From Antedon mediterranea (lineage: Eukaryota; Echinodermata; Crinoidea; Comatulida; Antedonidae): a stretch of 64,000 nucleotides of DNA. Below are positions 26,004 to 63,262 of this stretch, in pieces. Under the pieces are notes generated by a model. It saw only the letters and a list, made by a program, of their open reading frames with translations. It was not told the origin of the DNA and did not search any database. A program made the position numbers and the translations under genes. The DNA lies in the NCBI RefSeq assembly GCF_964355755.1, contig NC_092672.1, forward strand, positions 27,338,501 to 27,402,500, written 5' to 3'. Each line of letters begins with the position of its first letter. Position 1 is the stretch's first letter.

Positions 26004-28529
26004 ATTTCTAATTATTATTTTTTAAATGTAGTGTATCATTATGTTTCACTATATGTGATTTTGAACTAAATTTTGAATTTATCAATACTGTAAAACATAC
26101 TTAAATTTATATTTTCTTGACAAGTAAACAGATTGTAAAACTTCACCAGTGTCAAGATGAACTCTTTGTAGCAGATTGTTGGAAGTTAGAACTAGAAGAT
26201 GAGGTTGATAACCTTTGAACTTCATCATACTTGGTTCAAGATTGTTCTAAAATAAATTTATTAAAGAAATACATAATTAATTGTGAGTTTCAAATTTGCT
26301 ATGACTAATGATGCAATACAAGTATTAAGTAGGGAGCAAGCAACTTTCAAGTATTCGTATTGACAAAAAAACTTGACATATATAGAGGTAGAGAGGAAAC
26401 AGGACAGCCAAAGGTGGCGCGGAAAGACATGGTAAAGAAAGAAAGCATGAATGTTGTCCAGAGGTGTTTATCTAAGGGTAGATAAAGTCTACCTTCTTGG
26501 AGTTTGAATAGATTCTGTTTTTGCAAACCGAAATAAATTGTAAACCAACCAGGGCTCAGGAAATGAAATGTCAAAAATGAGCTAATGAGCATTCATGCAA
26601 ACTCTCTTGATTTGTGTGGAAAGTGTGTAGCATGAATTTTTCTAATTCCTCTGCGTATACATATGATTTGTGCAAACAAATTTTCCTACTGGAAAATTAG
26701 GAATTACACAAAGTAACTTTTAGTTTTTTACTGTACCACATTCACACTGCATATTAATGCATCATAAAACTCTTCTTCTTGATTTTCAGACTGTTTGTAC
26801 AACAAGCCTGGCAATCCATTTAAGCCATTACTGAAAACAAAAATATAACTACATTATTCCTCATGTATGTATTCATGTATGTATACCCAATCGCTAAAAA
26901 ACAAGACTTTTTTTTTTTTTTTATTTATATAAAATGTTTTTAAACATGACATCTTGTCAAACAATACTTGTTCTTTTAGCACTTATTGTACAATGCCTCA
27001 CTTACCCTGGTAATTTTTTGGATCAAAAACATATTTCCCATAATGCAGCTAGTAATACGCACTATTGTTTTGACCTTATGCCCAAAACTGACCCAAAATC
27101 TTTACAGTAATTAATTTGCATCAAATTTATTCTCAGGTTTCTGTTTGTGGAAGTCAATTGAATATTTGTCAAACGGTTAGAAGGCATGGAACTGATTGTA
27201 TCGCAATCACAGATAAAACTCTTGATCGAAAAGAGCTCAGCATACTGTTGTTAGATTGCCTTGGTTTGGGCAAATGAAAACTTTTTGAAGACTTATTTCA
27301 CATCATTTTTAAACATTTGACTAATAAATACTATTTTTTTTCATAAAAGTTAATAAAATAAAACAAATACTTGACTCCAAAAGATTTGTTAGTTCTTACC
27401 AAGAATAACATGTTTTGTAATTGTCCAAATACAATCTTTTTCTGGAAAAAAAATAGACAGTGATTGAAACTGTGAAACTAAACAAAGAGTAACAGATACT
27501 GTAGCTAGGAGTTTGATACATTGTAAAAAAACTATAACACAACATAGACCTATTTGTGACATGGTCGGTTTGGTACTCAGGCTTGAGATTTACTAATTGT
27601 GACACCATATCCAACAGAAACGTCTTCTCAGGGCAATTCATTATAATCCCCAAGTTGTTTTGAAATTTGGTTTAATAAAATATTGATTCAGATTTGTGAA
27701 AAAACATGAGATTATAGGTGTTTGGTAGCATAAGAAAAGGAAGAATCTACAGAGAAACCGACATCAAGATGTACACAAAATTTTATCAAAATTAAGTTTA
27801 CAACCTTTTAATCTTCAGGTTTAAAAAACATTTATCAATTCCATCAATTAACATGTACTAGTAGGGGTTTCCATTGGTCTTTGGTCTTTGATAGGCATTT
27901 GAGGTATTTGCTTTTGAAACATCCTTTCGGCTGGACAGGTGGATTTTTTTATTTATTTTTCCATATTATTATTCTCAATTTAGTGGCATAAAATTCAGGG
28001 ATTCCATAAAAACCAACAAATAAAGCAACATGCCTATTATATTTGAATAGATACTTACTCCTCGTACACAATATGGGACCTTGATTGAATTTGCCATACT
28101 TTCTTGTATTTAGCAGATTTCTACAACAAAATATACAACATATCATCATGAAGCTTCTTGTGCATCACTAGTTAGCCAGTTCCTTTATTGTAATGTTAGT
28201 TCTTAAAACTCATACAGTGACAGTGTTGATTTTTATGTTAAAAGTATAATATGGTGCGCTTCATAGATATTCGATAATTAAGTACACACAACTATCATCT
28301 TCCTATACTATGCAAAATATCATTTGAATATAGTCACACATCTAGGCTACACTGGGCATAATATTATACAAATAATTAATGTTTTTTATGAGTGTAATGG
28401 TACAAATAATGGCATGAGGTGAATGATAAAAGGTTATATTTTAACGAGGCGCTAGCTCTGAGTTGAAATATAACCTTTCTTCATAATATCCTAATTGCCA
28501 TCAGGCCAAGGCTAGACCCAGCTGGGCTG

Positions 28530-30063
28530 TAGACCGGCAGCCTAGAGACATTTGGTTAGATGAGCCAGGTACCAATATCTGACTATTTGAGTGTGTTGGG
28601 GGTCACTTGAAGTGAATGAAAATGGGAGTCTGCCGGGTACCCCCTGCTGCGTCTAGACCGGGGGGACCCCGAAACGTGCTAAAAAATCGGCACAGGTTAG
28701 ATGAGAGAGATACCACCTAATTTTACCACCATGGGATGCCCATTGGCATCCTTATAACAGTATCACAAACGACAGACCTTTTCTCTGCTGCAAAAGGCCC
28801 GCCAGACCCCCCGAGGGAGGGCCTAAAATGGGGTTAGCATAGATGAGTGAGGTACCACTCAAAATCAATTCCAAACGAACAAGTTGTGTTCATACAATAC
28901 TAAATGGATAACAACAGACTAATTGTCTGCTGCACCGCAAGTGCCAGACACCCTAAAGTTAGGCCCCCTTCCCCCAACTAACCCAGCTTAGATATTGTAG
29001 ATACCACCAGCAACCAATGTTATATGATTTAGCACATTGTAAGCAATACCAAATGACCTATTACAGACTATCTGTACACTGCTCTGGCCCTGGCAGACCC
29101 CTCTAAAGTTAGACTAGAGACCCCTCTTTCCCCAACTAGCCCAGCTTAGATATTGTAGATACCACCAGCAACCAATGTTATATGATTTAGCACATTGTAA
29201 GCAATCACCAAATGACCTATTACAAACTATCTGTACACTGCCTTGGCCCTGGCAGACCCCTCTAAAGTTCGACTAGAGACTCCATTCCCCCAACTGGCCT
29301 AGCTTAGATATTGTAGATACCACCAGCAACCAATGTTATAATTATGATTTAGCACATTGTAAGCAATACCAAATGACCTATAACAGACTATCTGTACACT
29401 GCCTTGGCACTGGCAGACCCCTCTAAAGTTCCCCCATTTACCCCAAGTATATCCTTAGATATTGTAGATACCACCAAAAAAACCACACAAAACAACATAT
29501 TTAATTGAATAAAGTTTAACTTTAATCGAACTAACACAAAACAATTGAAAATATATCACATCAATGACAATAAAATGACCATTACCATTTTAAAGGGAAA
29601 AATAGTTTTAGAGTTTCACTTCAAACTTATATAAGCCAAATATAAACAAGTACGGATTCGAGTAAATTTAGCATTCCTGCTAAGAATTGTGAGGATCTGG
29701 AATTCCTTGCCTTTGAATGTCAAAGATACATTCGTCTGTAACTCTTGCAACCTATTTTAAGAGAAAGCTTAGTAATCACCTTAATCAAATTCAGGATTGT
29801 AGTAACTTAATCAAAAGTGATTTGATTAATTAATAGTTGGTAATTTTAAATGCTGTATATTATAATCTTAATCCTCTATATATATTTATATATATAAATC
29901 CAAAGGCAAATAACTGAAAAAATGACAATGCTGTGGGTATCAGTGGCTGAATCTCAATGGAGATACAAAAAAAAATTGAAAAGCTAAATCAAAAGGCTAA
30001 AGTAAAACAGCCAGAAACGTTAGCAGAGCTTTCGGGCAACACTAGCCCTTCATCATTGCAAGT
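28530..30063. repeat. Left inverted arm with satellite array
   Basis: Bases 28530-29480 consist of about seven diverged units of ~150-165 bp. Each contains a (T)TAGAT..G..TACCA box and a CAGAC...CTGCTGC/CACTGC box. The last three (around 28990, 29160 and 29330) are nearly identical (ACCAGCAACCAATGTTATAT, CCTCTAAAGTT). Bases 29480-30063 are AT-rich, single copy within the arm, and pair with 32426-33000. Confidence 0.8.
30003..30063 (-). ncRNA. Hammerhead-like motif, left copy (core mutated)
   Basis: On the minus strand: ATGATGA, then stem II GGGC/GCCC around TAGTGTT, GAAA, then AGC/GCT closing a TCT loop. This is the order of a hammerhead ribozyme as found in Penelope-like elements. The first core base is A instead of the invariant C (C3), so self-cleavage is not expected. 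Same orientation as the element's coding region, at its 3' side. Confidence 0.55.
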
Positions 30064-30239
30064 GAAGGATAAGAGCTGGCAAGTGCTGCCTGGGTGGACA
30101 GGAATAAAAGAAATACAACAAAAGGAGACAGGGTGGAGTCTGAATAAGAGTAGAAAACAAAGAAGGTAGCTTGGTAGAGATACAGTATAAACAATTTTGG
30201 AATGAAACTAAACACGGCCAACAGCCATAAGTCGCGTGC

Positions 30240-30310
30240 TAAAACGCATAGTGATACCGGACCGACAGACAGACCGACAGACCGACCGACCGCCGACATA
30301 GTGAACTATA
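30240..30310. repeat. GACCGACAGACC-type short tandem repeat
   Basis: A run of CCGA/CAGA tetranucleotides (ACCGACAGACAGACCGACAG and on) lies just downstream of the Penelope coding end, inside the composite. Confidence 0.7.
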
Positions 30311-30368
30311 GAGTCGCGTCCACGCGACTAAAAACAGCTTAAATGGTGGTTAATATTGATACTTAAAT

Positions 30369-31990
30369 TTAGGTAGACAATGGAATAATTTTACCAACCT
30401 GGGAGTATGTTTCTAATGTTAAGTACAAAAGGTTTTGTGGTTTTAAGTTGTAATTCCCAGTGGTTTTCCTTGTCTTTGCAAGTTTTGTCGCTCCATTTGA
30501 CACATGGAATATTGCAATAACTCTGAAATTTGTTATCGAGTGACCAGATGAATTAAAATGTTCGGCTACAGGTTGAACAAGCTTTAATGTGTTGATAGCT
30601 GATCTGTGTTGTGTCATTCTCATACGGAGAGTGTTTTTGGTTTCTCCGACGTATGTTTGCCACAAATATTACAGTATATGAGATAAATGACGTTTTTGGT
30701 TAGACAATTAATTGATTGTCTTATCCGAAAAATGTGGCCAGTTTGGTTACTCTTAAATTTTTCAGTAGAATCAACCAATGAACAAGTTTTGCAAGATTTG
30801 CCGCAAAGGTGACTGCCCAAATTTTGACTGTCATGAGAGTTAATTTCACTCTTACATTTGGATCTGACTAATATATCACGAAGGTTGGGAGGTCTACGAA
30901 ATGCAATAATGGGTAGTTCCGGAAAAACAGTCCTGAGACGTTCTGTGGGCTGTAGAATGGGCATATGTTTCTCAATAAATTAATAGCCCCGTAATGGAGG
31001 CAACCTAGGTTGATAGGTTTGTAATTTCTATTCCGGAGATGTCCGGTTAGTTCTTCGGTACGATTCTGAAAATCTAAATCTGAAGAACAGATAGGTCTGA
31101 TAGGTAATGCTTTACTGTTCGGTATGTTTTTAGTACAGTGTTGGGGATGACAACTGCTAGGGAGCAGGTACATATTTTTATCAGTGGGTTTACGGAATAG
31201 GTCAGTTTTGAGAGTACCATTTTCTATGGTCACTATAGTGTCCACAAAATCAACGCTACTAGTGGATTTGGTAACTGTAAATCTTAGGATCGATGGAGTG
31301 TTTTTTTTTACCATCACAGAAACAGATTTTGCCACCTTATCCGCAATTTCCGGGGTGGGTTCCGTTGTGAGTTTACGATATATAATGAAGCTGTCTTAAG
31401 GATTCCTCTTAATAAAATTTGATGTCCATAGCAACAGTGGCAGAACCTTTATCAGCGGGTTTAATGATGATATCATTACGCTGACGCAATTTGGCAATGG
31501 CCTGCCTCTCTTGTTTTGAGATTGTCACGTTTATCTGGACTCGGGACGTAGTTTTGTACATCCTCCTCAATAGCCTGGATAAATGTTTCTAAAGCTGGAC
31601 AACGATTTTTAGGTGGATTCCAGGAACTTTTTGGTTTAAATTTGTTAACGTTGCATTCGTTTTGCGTGGTGCTGCTGTCTGAATCAGCAAAATATTCACG
31701 TAATCGTAATCTTCTAGAAAAAGACTCTATATCCAAAGATAGTTGTTGTGCGCCGACCTGCCTTGGTTTTGGGCAGAATTTAAGTCCTCGGGAAGGAAGT
31801 TTTTTCTCTCCTTCGGAAAGTCAACAATTAATTTCAACAACTGAATCAGAGGTGTTGCTCTGATTCTTGTAATATGTCCCAACGAACCTTCTGCAGGGTT
31901 TCCTAAAAGCCCTGAAGTCATCCGAAGGTAGAGTCATTTGTGTTGAAATGACCAAGTCTGCATATTAGACCAAATTTGTGATGTTCCCTT
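30369..31990 (-). pseudogene. Penelope-like reverse transcriptase plus GIY-YIG endonuclease, decayed
   Basis: Fragments in three frames follow the Penelope order. N-terminal part: SRRLRLREYFA, KSSWNPPKNRCPALETFI, then a block around 31430-31480 reading DIIIKPADKG. Next a short LRQLHYIS region, a late RT region (SSVDFVDTIVTIENGTLKTD, LFRKPTDKNMYLLPSSCHP), and a C-terminal GIY-YIG nuclease (VIYLIYCNICGK, then TYVGETKNTLRMRMTQHRS). The central RT portion, including the catalytic double-aspartate motif, is absent between ~31440 and 31335, so there is an internal deletion as well as frameshifts near 31735, 31400 and 30650. The element cannot encode active enzyme. Confidence 0.8.
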
Positions 31991-32425
31991 CGGGTCATTA
32001 CCGTTGATTGTTTACGGCAGTCATTGGCGATAATCCTGAGTTTGTTTTGAAACTAGGATGCAGGAAGTTCTCTTTTCAACTTCTTAGTTCTAGAGTGAAT
32101 TTCAACGTCAAACTCAGTGAGGATTTTGCGGCAATTGTCAATTTGGATCTCATTGAGATCTCTAATTTTGTTCAAATACCTTTTTTAATAGATACAGTAC
32201 TACATATCTACATAAATAAAGTACATAAAAAAAAATTATATATATTTATAATTTTTTTTTTAAATATTTTTTTCGATCGAGATACGGTATTGTTCAGTCT
32301 ATCTGAAGATCGTTTAACGTGAAACACCGTGTAATAGACCTCCGTGTTCCATCTACTTTATAAAAATATATATTCGCTCTTGATTCCAATTGAGCACGTT
32401 TGCAGCCTCAACGCATCTATATAAG

Positions 32426-32480
32426 ACTTGCACTGATGAAGGGCTAGTGTTGCGCGAAAGCTCTGCTAACTTTTCTGGCT
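32426..32480 (+). ncRNA. Hammerhead-like motif, right copy (core intact, stem II mismatch)
   Basis: CTGATGA, then GGGC-TAGTGTT-GCGC, GAAA, then AGC-TCT-GCT. The conserved core is complete here, but stem II has one G-G mismatch that the left copy lacks. Stem I is weak in the immediate flanks. Activity cannot be judged by eye. Confidence 0.55.
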
Positions 32481-33801
32481 GTTTACTTTATCGTTTTGAT
32501 TTAGCTTTTCGCTTTTTTTTGTATCTCCATTGAGATCCAGCCACTGATACCCACAGCATTGTCATTTTTTCAGTAATTTGCCTTTGGATTTATAAATATA
32601 TATATACATATGAATACAGGATTAAGATTATAATATACAGCATTTAAAATTACCCACTATTAATTAATCAAATCACTTTAGATTAAGTTACTACAATCCT
32701 GAATTTGATTAGGGTGATTACTAAGCTTTCTCTCAAAATATGTCCAAGAGTTACAGACGGATGTATCTTTGACATCCAAAGGCAAGGAATGCTAAATTTA
32801 CCCGAATCCATACTTGTTATATATATTTGGCTTATAATATATAAGTTTTAATTGAAACTCTTAAACTATTTTCCCCTTTAGAATGGTAATGGTCATTTTA
32901 TCGTCATTGATATATTTTCAATTGTTTTGTGTTAGTTCGATTAAAGTTAAACTTTATTCAATTAAACATGTTGTTTTGGGTGGTTATTTTGTTGCTGCTG
33001 GTGGTATCTACAATATCTAAGGTAGGCTATATACTTGGGGTAAATGGGGGAACTTTAGAGTGGTCTGCCAGTGCCAAGGCAGTGTACAGATAGTCTGTTA
33101 TAGGTCATTTTGTATTGCTTACAATGTGCTAAATCATAATTATAACATTGGTTGCTGGTGGTATCAACAATATCTAAGCTAGGCCAGTTGGGAAAATGGA
33201 GTCTCTAGTCGAACTTTAGAGGGGTCTGCCAGGGTCAAGGCAGTGTACAGATAGTTTGTAATAGGTCATTTGGTGATTGCTTACAATGTGCTAAATCATA
33301 TAACATTGGTTGCTGGTGGTATCTACAATATCTAAGCTTGGTTAGTTGGGGGAAGGGGGGCCTCTAGTCTAACTTTAGGGTGTCTGGCACTTGCGGTGCA
33401 GCAGACAATTAGTCTGTTGTTATCCATTTAGTATTGTATGAACACAACTTGTTCGTTTGGAATTGATTTTGAGTGGTACCTCACTCATCTATGCTAACCC
33501 CATTTTAGGCCCTCCCTCGGGGGGTCTGGCGGGCCTTTTGCAGCAGAGAAAAAGTCTGTCGTTTGTGATACTATTATAAGGATGCCAATGGGCATCCCAT
33601 GGTGGTAAAATTTGGTGGTATCTCTCTCATCTAACCTGTGCCGATTTTTTAGCACGTTTCGGGGTCCCCCCGGTCTAGACGCAGCAGGGGGTACCCGGCA
33701 GACTCCCATTTTCATTCACTTCAAGTGACCCCCAACACACTCAAATAGTCAGATATTGGTACCTAGCTCATCTAACCAAATGTCTCTGGGCTGCCGGTCT
33801 A
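32426..33801. repeat. Right inverted arm with satellite array
   Basis: Reverse complement of the left arm, about 160 bp shorter, roughly one satellite unit fewer. The outer end CCGGTCTA at 33801 mirrors TAGACCGG at 28530. High similarity along the whole arm suggests either recent formation or gene conversion between arms. Confidence 0.8.
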
Positions 33802-34902
33802 CTGCAGCAATAAAAAAAAAACTTCGACAGGCAACCGGAACTAGAATTATAGGCTAGCCGCTATAATTATGTTTTTTCCAACGATTTCATGTCTTGTTTG
33901 TAGAGATGTTCTCATTAATAATTCATAATCCTAAAAACGATCAAAACCTATTTAAATGCTTGATCTAAATTTGTACATATTTCTCCAAATCGTACACATC
34001 GTGTGGTGGTGTTTACAAACAAAACAGAGGCAGAATAACAGGTGGTGCTGTTGTATTGTATTTATAAAGTAATTTGTATACTAAATTTTTTTTCATCCAC
34101 AAAATTTTTTTTTTTTCATACAAAAATACTACTAAAATACTATTAAAAGATCGTTTAATAGTGCGATCAAATGACAGGAATTATTTAGAGGTTATATAAA
34201 ATCAAACATTGTATACTCTATCTCTAAGAAATATTTCAATCTTTTATCAACTAAGCCGAAGTTATTTATACAGTTATTTCTGGACATTTGGCGTGCCATA
34301 CTTGGCTACCGAAATGAACATTTTGTTCTTTTGGCGTTTCATGAACTTGGCATAACCACCTGCAGAATGCACTGTACTGTGTGATAACCAGTGATTTGTA
34401 ATAGCCGAAGGCTGGATAGCAATATATTGTGTTATAGCAGTTCAAGAAGTGATTCTCCATGGACCATGCCATGGAGAGGGAACCAACTTCACTGTGCTTT
34501 AACAAGAATATGTGTTGTAATTTATGTGGTCTTAATGTATTATATAAGATTATTATTTTTTATATTAAATAATGTTTTTGAACACATTTACGGCCGCCAT
34601 CTTGTTGGTTCCCCTCCTGATGTTGGAATCACTTTTCAATCAATCTGGAGTACGCCAATCTAGCCTTCGGCTTTACCTCACTGGTGATGACTCGACCGTG
34701 TCTAGAGCGTGGCGCTGTCTCCTCTCCTACTATTTTTTAGGCCTAGCCTGGACCGTATATCTGTTCAGTATTATTATTAATACTAGAGGCCTATTGATAC
34801 GAAAATAAAAGGCAATTAGTACCTGTAGTATCAACTTCCTAAGTATCCTACAATTTTTGCGATAATTTCTGCCATCTATTCTTTCTCTTTCGAATATTTG
34901 TT

Positions 34903-40592: not shown

Positions 40593-43370
40593 ATGACTAG
40601 TAACCAACAAAATGCTGCAGCGGATTCATCGCTGGATCCATCAATACCTGATCCGATTTCTACAAACACACCTATAATGCCGGAACTTAGTATCCAAGGA
40701 CAACCAAGGCGACCACGACCAAGACTTCTCAGATCCACTACACCGAGGAGTGGTGCAGTAAACAGCCCAGAGATGGCAACAGACGTCAGCGTAGTTCAAC
40801 CAGGGACATTGCCCTTGTTGTTGGCTGACATTGATCCACCATTGGATACTGTACCAAGAGTGTATCAGATAAAGAGTGTTCCCACATTTACTGGGAGGGA
40901 TAAGGATGGATTAAAGGTGGAAGACTGGGTTAGAGATATAAAGTATCTGTTACGATCCAAGGGTTATTCTGCACCACTTCCCCAATTCCATGAGATTGTA
41001 AGACACACTGAGGATCGGGCCCGTGACTTTGTATTGAACTTGGAGAGTAGGGGTCCAGACCTAATGACACCTGATGCTGCCCTGAAAGAACTGGTCAGAG
41101 AGTATTGGGGACTTGAACTTTATTGTGTCACCTATAGCAGCTTTTTATGCCCGTTTTCAGCAGTCCACTGAAACGCCAAGAGACTATGCAATTGCGCTCG
41201 AAGCTCTTTTACGCCAAGTATGTGGCCAACTCAAGTCACAAAATTCTGTCGAACTGATGGATCGAGATGGGGTTTTATGAACCCAGTTTATGTATGGCCT
41301 GCGAGATGTAAATGTAAAGAATCGGCTGGCTCCGATGCACCCATGGCACATGACATTTGCAGCTTTACGGGAAGAACTACACATCATCTCCTATGAATTG
41401 GCACATAACCGTGATCAGACAGACAGACTGTAGCAAGACCTAAAGACAGTGTTGCAAAGAGCGAAGTGAAATCAATACCAACCACGGATATAAACCTCGA
41501 AATATTAGAACGGTTAAAGGCTTTAGATGGTACGCATTCAAGGAATCGAAAACAAGCCAGAAAGTTATGACAGACCTCGGGCACAACCTCGCAGGAACGC
41601 CTGCTTCAAATGCGGCAAGATTGGTCATTTCGCCAGAAACTGTAATCCGACTAACAATCGCCCCGCATCAATGTGACACAGCAGCAACAACAGACTTACT
41701 TCGAACACCAGACACCTTTTCAGCCACAAAGTGTAAACTCCTACCAGACCGGCAATCATGGTGTACAAATAACACAGCAGCTGCGACAACAAGTTTACTT
41801 TGAACATCAGATTCCATTCCAGCCACAAGGCCCTTTCCAACAATTTGGCCGACCATGGTATCCCACTAATCAACAGCTTCCAGTAAATCAACAAGCCGAC
41901 CTGAAACAGCTGCTGCCAGCCATCAGCTTTCTTTAAACGGGTATGAACTGCAGACGACGGGCTATCTGTTGGTATGAATTTGTGCCCAAACAAATCAATA
42001 GAGGGATTAATCGGTCCAGTGAATGAAGCTATTGTATCCATATCTGGTCAACTTTGTAATGCTCTTTTAGATACAGGTTCACAAGTTACAACCATCACTG
42101 CAGATTTCGTCAATGATCACCCAACTTTAAAGATCTAAAAGCTACAGCTAGTTGCTGTGAACATTGAATGGGCTGGAGGTCAGTTAGTAGCCCACCATGG
42201 TGTTCTGCTCATCAACTTGGAAGTACTGGGAGTAGAGTTGGAGGCGGTTCCGGTACTGGTTGTACCATCAAGATGAAGATGCCCTGTTTCATTGGAACGA
42301 ATGTGATATGGCCAACTACATGGTCAGTATGGACGGTCATTCATGGAAATCATTCGGGAGAAATCTACTACATGGTTTGCAGCTTACCAGTCTCTAAAGG
42401 GTGATGGGATGGACTGACTGACTGACTGACTCTGAGGTTATACAGATTATACTGTGTAAACTCCTCGAAATGAAAAAAAGCCGAACCACACCTTACCACC
42501 CACAGGGGAATGGCATGACTGAGCGGTTCAACTCTACATTACTCAATATGTTGGGAACGCATCAGCCTCATCAGAAACCTCGGTGGCGTGACCATGTAGA
42601 GGCCATGACACACGCCTATTGTTCCACGCATTCATCAACTCAGTTCACCCCATTTTTTCTGTTTATAATGCGTGAACCGAGAGTGTCTTTAGAGTAGAAC
42701 CTTTTGAACTTTTTGAACTAGAGACTGATGGAGAGGAACTCACTGACACAAATGAAGTTGATTTCATCCATTGACTCAGATACCAACTTCGTCCATTGAC
42801 TCAGATACCAACTTCGTCCATTGACTCAGATACCAACTTCGTCCATTGACTCAGATACCAACTTCGTCCATTGACTCAGATACCAACTTCGTCCATTGAC
42901 TCAGATACCAACTTCGTCCATTGACTCAGATACCAATTTCGTCCATTGACTCAGATACCAACTTCGTCCATTGACTCAGATACCAACTTCAAGAAGCTTA
43001 CGACTTAGCAGCGATGCATACAAAGGCTGCAAGACAGAAGCAGAAAAATGCGTACAACAAAACGTTGATTTGAACGTTGGAGACTCTGTTTTAGTTGCTA
43101 ACAAGTCATTGCGTGGCCGTAATAAACTGAGGGAAAGATGGGAGGAAACACCATATACCATTATTCATCACATCCAAGGTCAGTCCACATTCACTGTGCA
43201 CCGAGATGATGATGGCAGAGAGCAAACTGTTCACCGCAACCATGTACCTTTGAAAAATTTGATAGTGATGGTAGTAGTTGCAACAATGCACCAGAGTCTC
43301 CTTCAACTGATGATGATGATCCAGAAGTTTACAGAACGAATGCAACTGACTTGATTCCTCTTCCTGCTGA
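40593..43370 (+). pseudogene. Ty3/gypsy element 2: gag-protease-integrase, internally deleted
   Basis: The gag N terminus is open for 192 codons (40593-41171; VPTFTGRDKDGLKVEDWVRD). A CCHC knuckle (CFKCGKIGHFARNC) lies near 41600 and protease (NALLDTGSQVTTITADF) near 42055. Polymerase is missing. The integrase core end (TPYHPQGNGMTERFN, 42480-42540) is followed by a minisatellite and the integrase C-terminal region (NVGDSVLVANKSLRGRNKL, near 43075-43110). Gag blocks shared with element 1 (RARD, VLNLE, AL.EL..EY) point to the same family. Broken by stops and by the loss of the whole RT-RNase H segment. Confidence 0.75.
42768..42990. repeat. 25-bp minisatellite, nine units
   Basis: The unit CCATTGACTCAGATACCAAC plus TTCGT repeats with almost no variation (one C-to-T change around 42938). 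Eight full units and a 23-base ninth. It sits inside the integrase region of gypsy element 2. Since 25 is not a multiple of three, it shifts the frame. Confidence 0.95.
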
Positions 43371-63117: not shown

Positions 63118-63262
63118 ATCTTAGGACAACTACCCTCTGGACAATTACCACCCGGACAACTACTTCCCGGACAATCACTCCTCTAGGACAACTACCCCCG
63201 AACAACTACACCTTAGGAAACTACTCCCTAGGACAACTACTCCCAAGGACAACTACCGCATA
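63118..63262. repeat. Degenerate minisatellite, ~15-18-bp unit GGACAACTACCCCC
   Basis: Around nine copies of a GGACAACTAC core followed by 4-8 variable pyrimidine-rich bases. Confidence 0.75.

Follow-up and report, generated by a model that had tools for sequence, protein, structure and literature searches.

Foldback transposons that carry tandem repeats in long inverted arms have been described in Drosophila, where Galileo, of the P superfamily, and Tetris, a probable Mutator relative, contain repeats of about 210-220 bp (PMC3573991, PMC4079207, as excerpted). Academ transposons comprise two lineages that differ in the length of their target-site duplications (TSDs), 3 or 4 bp in AcademX and 9 or 10 bp in AcademH, a difference tied to the nuclease and the helicase that the two lineages encode (PMC10045372). 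Penelope-like elements (PLEs), on the other hand, are retroelements whose pseudo-long terminal repeats (pLTRs) are usually arranged as tandem direct copies and whose endonucleases prefer AT-rich DNA (PMC11167929). The window analysed here, a stretch of 64,000 nucleotides from the crinoid Antedon mediterranea (NC_092672.1, positions 27,338,501 to 27,402,500), harbours an element of 5272 bp that is very probably a DNA transposon of the foldback type, non-autonomous and most likely a member of the AcademX lineage, which captured a 5'-truncated Penelope and was amplified in trans. This reading is directly supported by the ends of the element, its duplications, the series of its copies, relatives free of Penelope or of arms, and the order of two Penelope insertions.

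Comparison with other copies places the start of the element, TAGACCGGCAGCC, at 28530 and its end, GGCTGCCGGTCTA, at 33801, exactly the coordinates proposed in the original prediction, which had been made from the letters of the window. The element, its flanks and its arms are delimited as follows.

28530..33801, unstranded: complete composite element, 5272 bp, with the ends TAGACCGGCAGCC...GGCTGCCGGTCTA common to the copies
28527..28529, unstranded: left target-site duplication CTG (flank comparison)
33802..33804, unstranded: right target-site duplication CTG (flank comparison)
28530..29889, plus strand: arm A, the long terminal inverted repeat beside the Penelope 3' end (arm comparison)
32598..33801, minus strand: arm B, the long terminal inverted repeat on the Penelope 5' side (arm comparison)
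28964..29431, plus strand: 158-bp tandem repeat within arm A, 2.9 units (tandem-repeat analysis)
33050..33386, minus strand: 158-161-bp tandem repeat within arm B, 2.1-2.4 units (tandem-repeat analysis)

The sequence TAGACCGGCAGCC is found at both ends of the element, as the conserved terminal inverted repeats of an AcademX transposon should be. The 13-base terminus has 91 exact matches genome-wide against none for a reversed control, and convergent pairs of termini no more than 20 kb apart number 28, while about 0.1 would be expected by chance. The original prediction had proposed looking for a duplication at the borders of the element, and CTG is indeed present on both sides. Perfect 3-bp duplications accompany 12 of the 15 insertions with both flanks read and 4-bp matches none, in keeping with the 3 or 4 bp of AcademX; shuffling the flanks yields a mean of 1.7 perfect 3-bp pairs, and not one of 20,000 shuffles reaches 12. 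The duplicated sequence varies (CTG, GTA, ATA, ATT, TTT and ACT, among others) and does not follow the TWA of PIF/Harbinger elements. Additionally, an empty site is available for a relative of the element, L070: the arrangement GTCAGCGTAA[element]TAATGATAT within Penelope sequence corresponds to GTCAGCGTAATGATAT in the uninterrupted sequence of the window (31475-31490, minus strand), and TAA, present twice around L070, occurs there once. This integration pattern is that of a DNA transposon.

When outer arms, inner arms and centre were searched separately in the genome, they led largely to the same loci, with order and orientation preserved. The arms occur together with the Penelope centre in at least 24 two-ended copies (24 of the 28 convergent pairs), at 24 loci with differing flanks distributed over 10 of the 11 large contigs, all copy numbers being lower bounds. 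The young copies differ by a mean of 1.0% (range 0.05-1.9%) over about 1.7 kb, and the composite is a stable mobile unit that was recently amplified. One A arm and one B arm are present in 11 of the 11 elements with both arms read, several arms having been read from one side only, which indicates that the young family descends from a single composite.

Arm A is composed of an outer part, the tandem repeats and an AT-rich inner part with a (TA)n end. The inverted arms reported in the original prediction are real: their complementarity reaches 99% over the outer 437 nt and 97% over 350 nt, continues in pieces of 91-95%, and extends inward to 30063 on one side and 32426 on the other. The element therefore possesses the long, pairable inverted arms and the internal tandem repeats of a foldback transposon. 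The tandem repeat of about 160 bp, described there as a satellite, also exists, with two to three units per arm, but it accounts for roughly a third of the length of each arm, and the description of the arms as consisting largely of satellite was therefore an overstatement. Elsewhere, as far as checked, the 158-bp repeat forms blocks of two or three units in the arms of the same element family; the search passed over common words, and among the matches listed there are at least 140 units, which form short blocks and almost all of which lie at arms of the family. The outer 433 bp show a mean of 2.0 differences between the two arms of one element, and the inner arm parts of the window copy differ by 6% between left and right. 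Two variants occur in both arms of a single element and in no other element; these two sites, thin evidence in number, suggest arm-to-arm conversion in the outer arms.

Between the arms lie the remains of two Penelope insertions and a spacer that belongs to the DNA element.

29890..32156, minus strand: captured Penelope-like element, 5'-truncated, with broken frame and deleted reverse transcriptase (RT) core (homology to the free copies L064 and L065)
30369..30668, minus strand: GIY-YIG endonuclease remnant of the Penelope open reading frame (ORF) (weak Pfam match, 0.011)
30868..31395, minus strand: C-terminal portion of the RT ORF of Penelope (colinear with the ORF of L064)
32157..32424, minus strand: spacer of the DNA element, situated between the two arms and upstream of the inserted Penelope (same junction in L066, L073+L059, L074+L060, L076 and L077)
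32425..32597, plus strand: second, independent Penelope insertion, consisting of a 3' pLTR alone and lying in the (TA)n tract of arm B (5 older composites are without it)
30213..30326, unstranded: short GC-rich dispersed repeat within the Penelope part of young copies (missing from L064 and from the older composites)

A Penelope had been placed in the centre from the start, and a minus-strand Penelope-like ORF is present there, but it is broken and its RT core is deleted, with the gap at about 31280-31282 relative to L064. Being truncated and without RT core, the window copy does not possess the single ORF with RT and GIY-YIG of a Penelope element, nor does it have direct pLTRs, its pLTR pieces being inverted and derived from two insertions. 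The free relative L064 gives Pfam matches to RVT_1 (1e-9) and GIY-YIG (1e-4) and has direct pLTRs; it is the only free copy read at both ends, so that the pLTR arrangement is known from this copy. Neither L064 nor L065, both of them Penelope copies, has arms. The captured element ends on the left in its 3' pLTR with a hammerhead-like core, and the core motif (CTGATGA...GAAA) can be recognized at the inner ends of both arms; hammerhead motifs had been mentioned in the original prediction. These copies are mutated, with a C>A change at the first core base on the left and a broken stem II on the right, and the Rfam hammerhead models gave no match in the window at gathering or relaxed thresholds, even at E<=5; for this reason no ribozyme activity is claimed. 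The GC-rich repeat at 30213-30326 begins GACCGACAGACAGACC..., has the ends AGTCGCGT/ACGCGACT and occurs again elsewhere in L065.

The order in which the composite was built can be followed in five older composites (L066, L073+L059, L074+L060, L076 and L077). In all of them Penelope, where it meets the spacer, is truncated at its 5' end at almost one and the same position, which indicates a single insertion; L066 and L076 retain RT-core sequence, which is missing from L073+L059, L074+L060 and the young family. In the five older composites the spacer follows directly on the (TA)n tract of arm B, as TTATATAGATGCG in the three that were aligned and, by coordinates, in the same way in L076 and L077, whereas the young copies carry at this junction 173 bp of a Penelope 3' end in opposite orientation. 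The pLTR of arm A shows derived states in all readable copies, old and young (ATGATGA, ACGTTT, CAGTTATT and GAGATTC), while the pLTR of arm B shows in all readable copies the states of free Penelope (CTGATGA, ACTTTT and CAGTAATT), and in a tree the arm-B pLTRs group with free Penelope, apart from the arm-A pLTRs, with a support of 0.996. The diagnostic sites and the tree thus identify the mirrored hammerhead-like motifs as the result of two Penelope insertions that took place independently in equivalent AT-rich tracts. Such a double hit is reasonable because Penelope endonucleases prefer AT-rich DNA (PMC11167929), and it would be through this preference that the (TA)n tracts became targets. 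As for the spacer, its last 50 bp or so match the transposase-bearing L067 (6993-7045). A part of the spacer (32279-32424, about 146 bp; positions 397-540 of L078) is found in five further places at about 92% identity, and in L078 there are no arms within the 1 kb read around it; this stretch may constitute a small repeat of its own.

Penelope is absent from three relatives that have the same ends and related arms: L067 (7987 bp, with a TAG duplication and arms 88-93% identical to those of the window), L068 (784 bp) and L070 (1662 bp). L069 (3892 bp) has identical 13-bp ends, arms that are only 57% alike and are internally repeated as well, and a transposase remnant; judged by its sequence, it is a sister subfamily. 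The position of L070 within Penelope sequence, with its TAA duplication, implies that both kinds of element insert into each other. The degenerate protein of L067, although interrupted by several broken frames, aligns colinearly with residues 61-1452 of an ORF of 1524 aa in L071 (E 2.5e-120) and also with L072, a fragment of the L067/L071 protein is retained in L069 (5e-17), and a diverged copy of the same transposase gene, in L079, lies about 1.6 kb from a TAGACC-type terminus. In the genome this transposase family is represented by more than 100 matches, of which some contain ORFs of around 1500 aa. Its proteins have weak similarity to DUF6589 and share conserved HEEADT, SDTD and TGCD blocks, which we take, by eye, to resemble the acidic motifs of XPG/FEN nucleases; searches against Pfam, NCBIfam and PDB sequences returned no named transposase or nuclease and no XPG match.

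The course of events best supported by these copies begins with a non-autonomous foldback, most likely of the AcademX lineage, with terminal inverted repeats of about 1.2-1.4 kb containing short tandem repeats. In an ancestral, internally deleted copy, a 5'-truncated Penelope entered the (TA)n tract with which one arm ends on its inner side, and a 3'-only Penelope fragment later entered the matching tract of the other arm. A transposase that recognizes the TAGACC...GGTCTA ends would then have moved the composite in trans, with 3-bp duplications as its trace, and amplification followed recently. The driver would be the AcademX-like transposase of the element family itself. Several points speak against this account: 3 of the 15 flank pairs (L029/L011, L068 and L069) are without a perfect duplication, no intact transposase with the exact element ends was found in the genome, the frame of L067 being broken, and the Academ assignment rests on the length of the duplications, a large ORF with an XPG/FEN-like motif recognized by eye, and weak DUF6589 similarity. 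The lineage is probably AcademX, an assignment made from sequence features.

It is unlikely that the same anatomy is mobilised by a transposase of another superfamily with 3-bp duplications, such as PIF/Harbinger, CACTA or Zator. A 3-bp duplication alone is no discriminator, but the duplications are not TWA, the ends are not CACTA, and the protein of L067, of L069 and, by position, of L079 has no Pfam match to the transposases of those superfamilies. In favour of an origin of the mirrored pLTR by arm-to-arm copying, through gene conversion that began in the terminal repeat and ran on into the end of Penelope, it can be said that left-right identity is the same in the AT-rich inner arms (94.0%) as in the parts of the pLTR (94.2%), that the outer arms seem to co-evolve, to judge by their few differences within elements and by the two variants confined to both arms of one element, and that extension of the terminal inverted repeats of Galileo by recruitment is mentioned in the excerpted report (PMC3573991). 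Nevertheless, copying from arm A would have transferred its derived states, and the readable arm-B pLTRs, all of which resemble free Penelope and are separated from those of arm A in the tree, make such an origin distinctly unlikely.

The original prediction had also offered a Penelope variant with a satellite in its terminal repeats; such a variant would have the long, inverted, satellite-bearing arms as its own ends and would be moved by its RT and GIY-YIG endonuclease. Penelope sequence is central in at least 24 copies, and young copies do have inverted pLTR fragments at both inner arm ends. However, free copies of the same Penelope are armless, with ordinary direct pLTRs in L064, arms with the same ends occur without Penelope, the duplications are fixed at 3 bp, both termini are retained in most copies, and the young family has lost its RT core, so that this variant is very improbable. 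Chance nesting, a local inversion or an assembly artefact at a single locus is scarcely credible: long near-identical arms are prone to misassembly, but the same structure recurs with different flanks at 24 loci on 10 of the 11 large contigs. Penelope centres and arms occurring alone had been named in advance as signs of such nesting, and both do exist as separate components, but the composite is not a one-off event; arms and centre travel together in its copies, not always, as the relatives without Penelope or without arms attest. The other suggestion of the original prediction, a foldback-type DNA element with a captured retroelement, is borne out by the fixed termini, the 3-bp duplications, L067, L068 and L070 on one side and L064 and L065 on the other, and the copies of the whole unit.

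In its 3-bp duplications, its terminal inverted repeats and the large single-protein transposase of same-ended relatives, the captured-Penelope foldback resembles the AcademX transposons of the Academ superfamily (Kapitonov and Jurka; Kojima), but it is non-autonomous and has arms of 1.2-1.4 kb with internal tandem repeats and a retroelement cargo. We know of no foldback-type Academ with such cargo, and searches of open papers brought up no Academ or foldback element described as carrying a Penelope. Its centre is homologous to Penelope/Poseidon-like elements, with which it shares the RT and GIY-YIG ORF, a pLTR, the hammerhead-like core and the AT-rich target, except that here Penelope is a 5'-truncated passenger without RT core and its inverted pLTRs are two insertions. 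Helentron-associated elements belong to the rolling-circle elements and have neither terminal inverted repeats nor TSDs. The excerpted description of non-autonomous elements of this kind in the Pacific oyster provides a parallel in short satellite-like arrays dispersed by a mobile element (PMC7492417). With Galileo and Tetris the element has in common long inverted arms with tandem repeats, non-autonomous copies, changes in arm length and recombination between arms, and it differs in transposase and in duplication length (8-10 bp in Tetris); no captured Penelope is reported in the excerpts of those two sources (PMC3573991, PMC4079207). The combination of a tandem-repeat foldback design with 3-bp duplications and an AcademX-like relative is new here, adding a probable Academ member to the foldbacks with arm tandem repeats, so far mainly P and Mutator relatives.

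At this locus the capture of a class I element by a class II element, and its subsequent movement by DNA transposition, are well resolved. Retroelements nested in DNA transposons are common, while a nested unit with two dozen copies and a readable history is less so. Its steps can be read from surviving copies, from the Penelope-free relatives through the first insertion, the loss of the RT core and the second, mirrored insertion to the burst. Moreover, it shows that an inverted pLTR arrangement can arise without any change in the retroelement, a warning against reading such an arrangement as a structural type of Penelope. It is conceivable, though we hold it to be quite improbable, that the mirrored (TA)n tracts serve as repeat landing sites for Penelope and that the DNA transposon and the retroelement aid each other's spread; the DNA element would then disperse Penelope target sites and 3' ends, and a pLTR-homing Penelope would reload the DNA element.

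Some further repeats and ORFs were seen. A 25-bp tandem array (TTCGTCCATTGACTCAGATACCAAC) of 9.1 units with 98% matches occupies positions 42763-42990 of the window, and a degenerate GGACAACTACYCC array with periods of 15, 31, 45 and 61 bp occupies positions 63120-63257. Finally, the RVT_1 search revealed four near-identical reverse transcriptase ORFs of 1516 aa, spaced by about 8-9 kb, at G000:C9:5062264-5087100.

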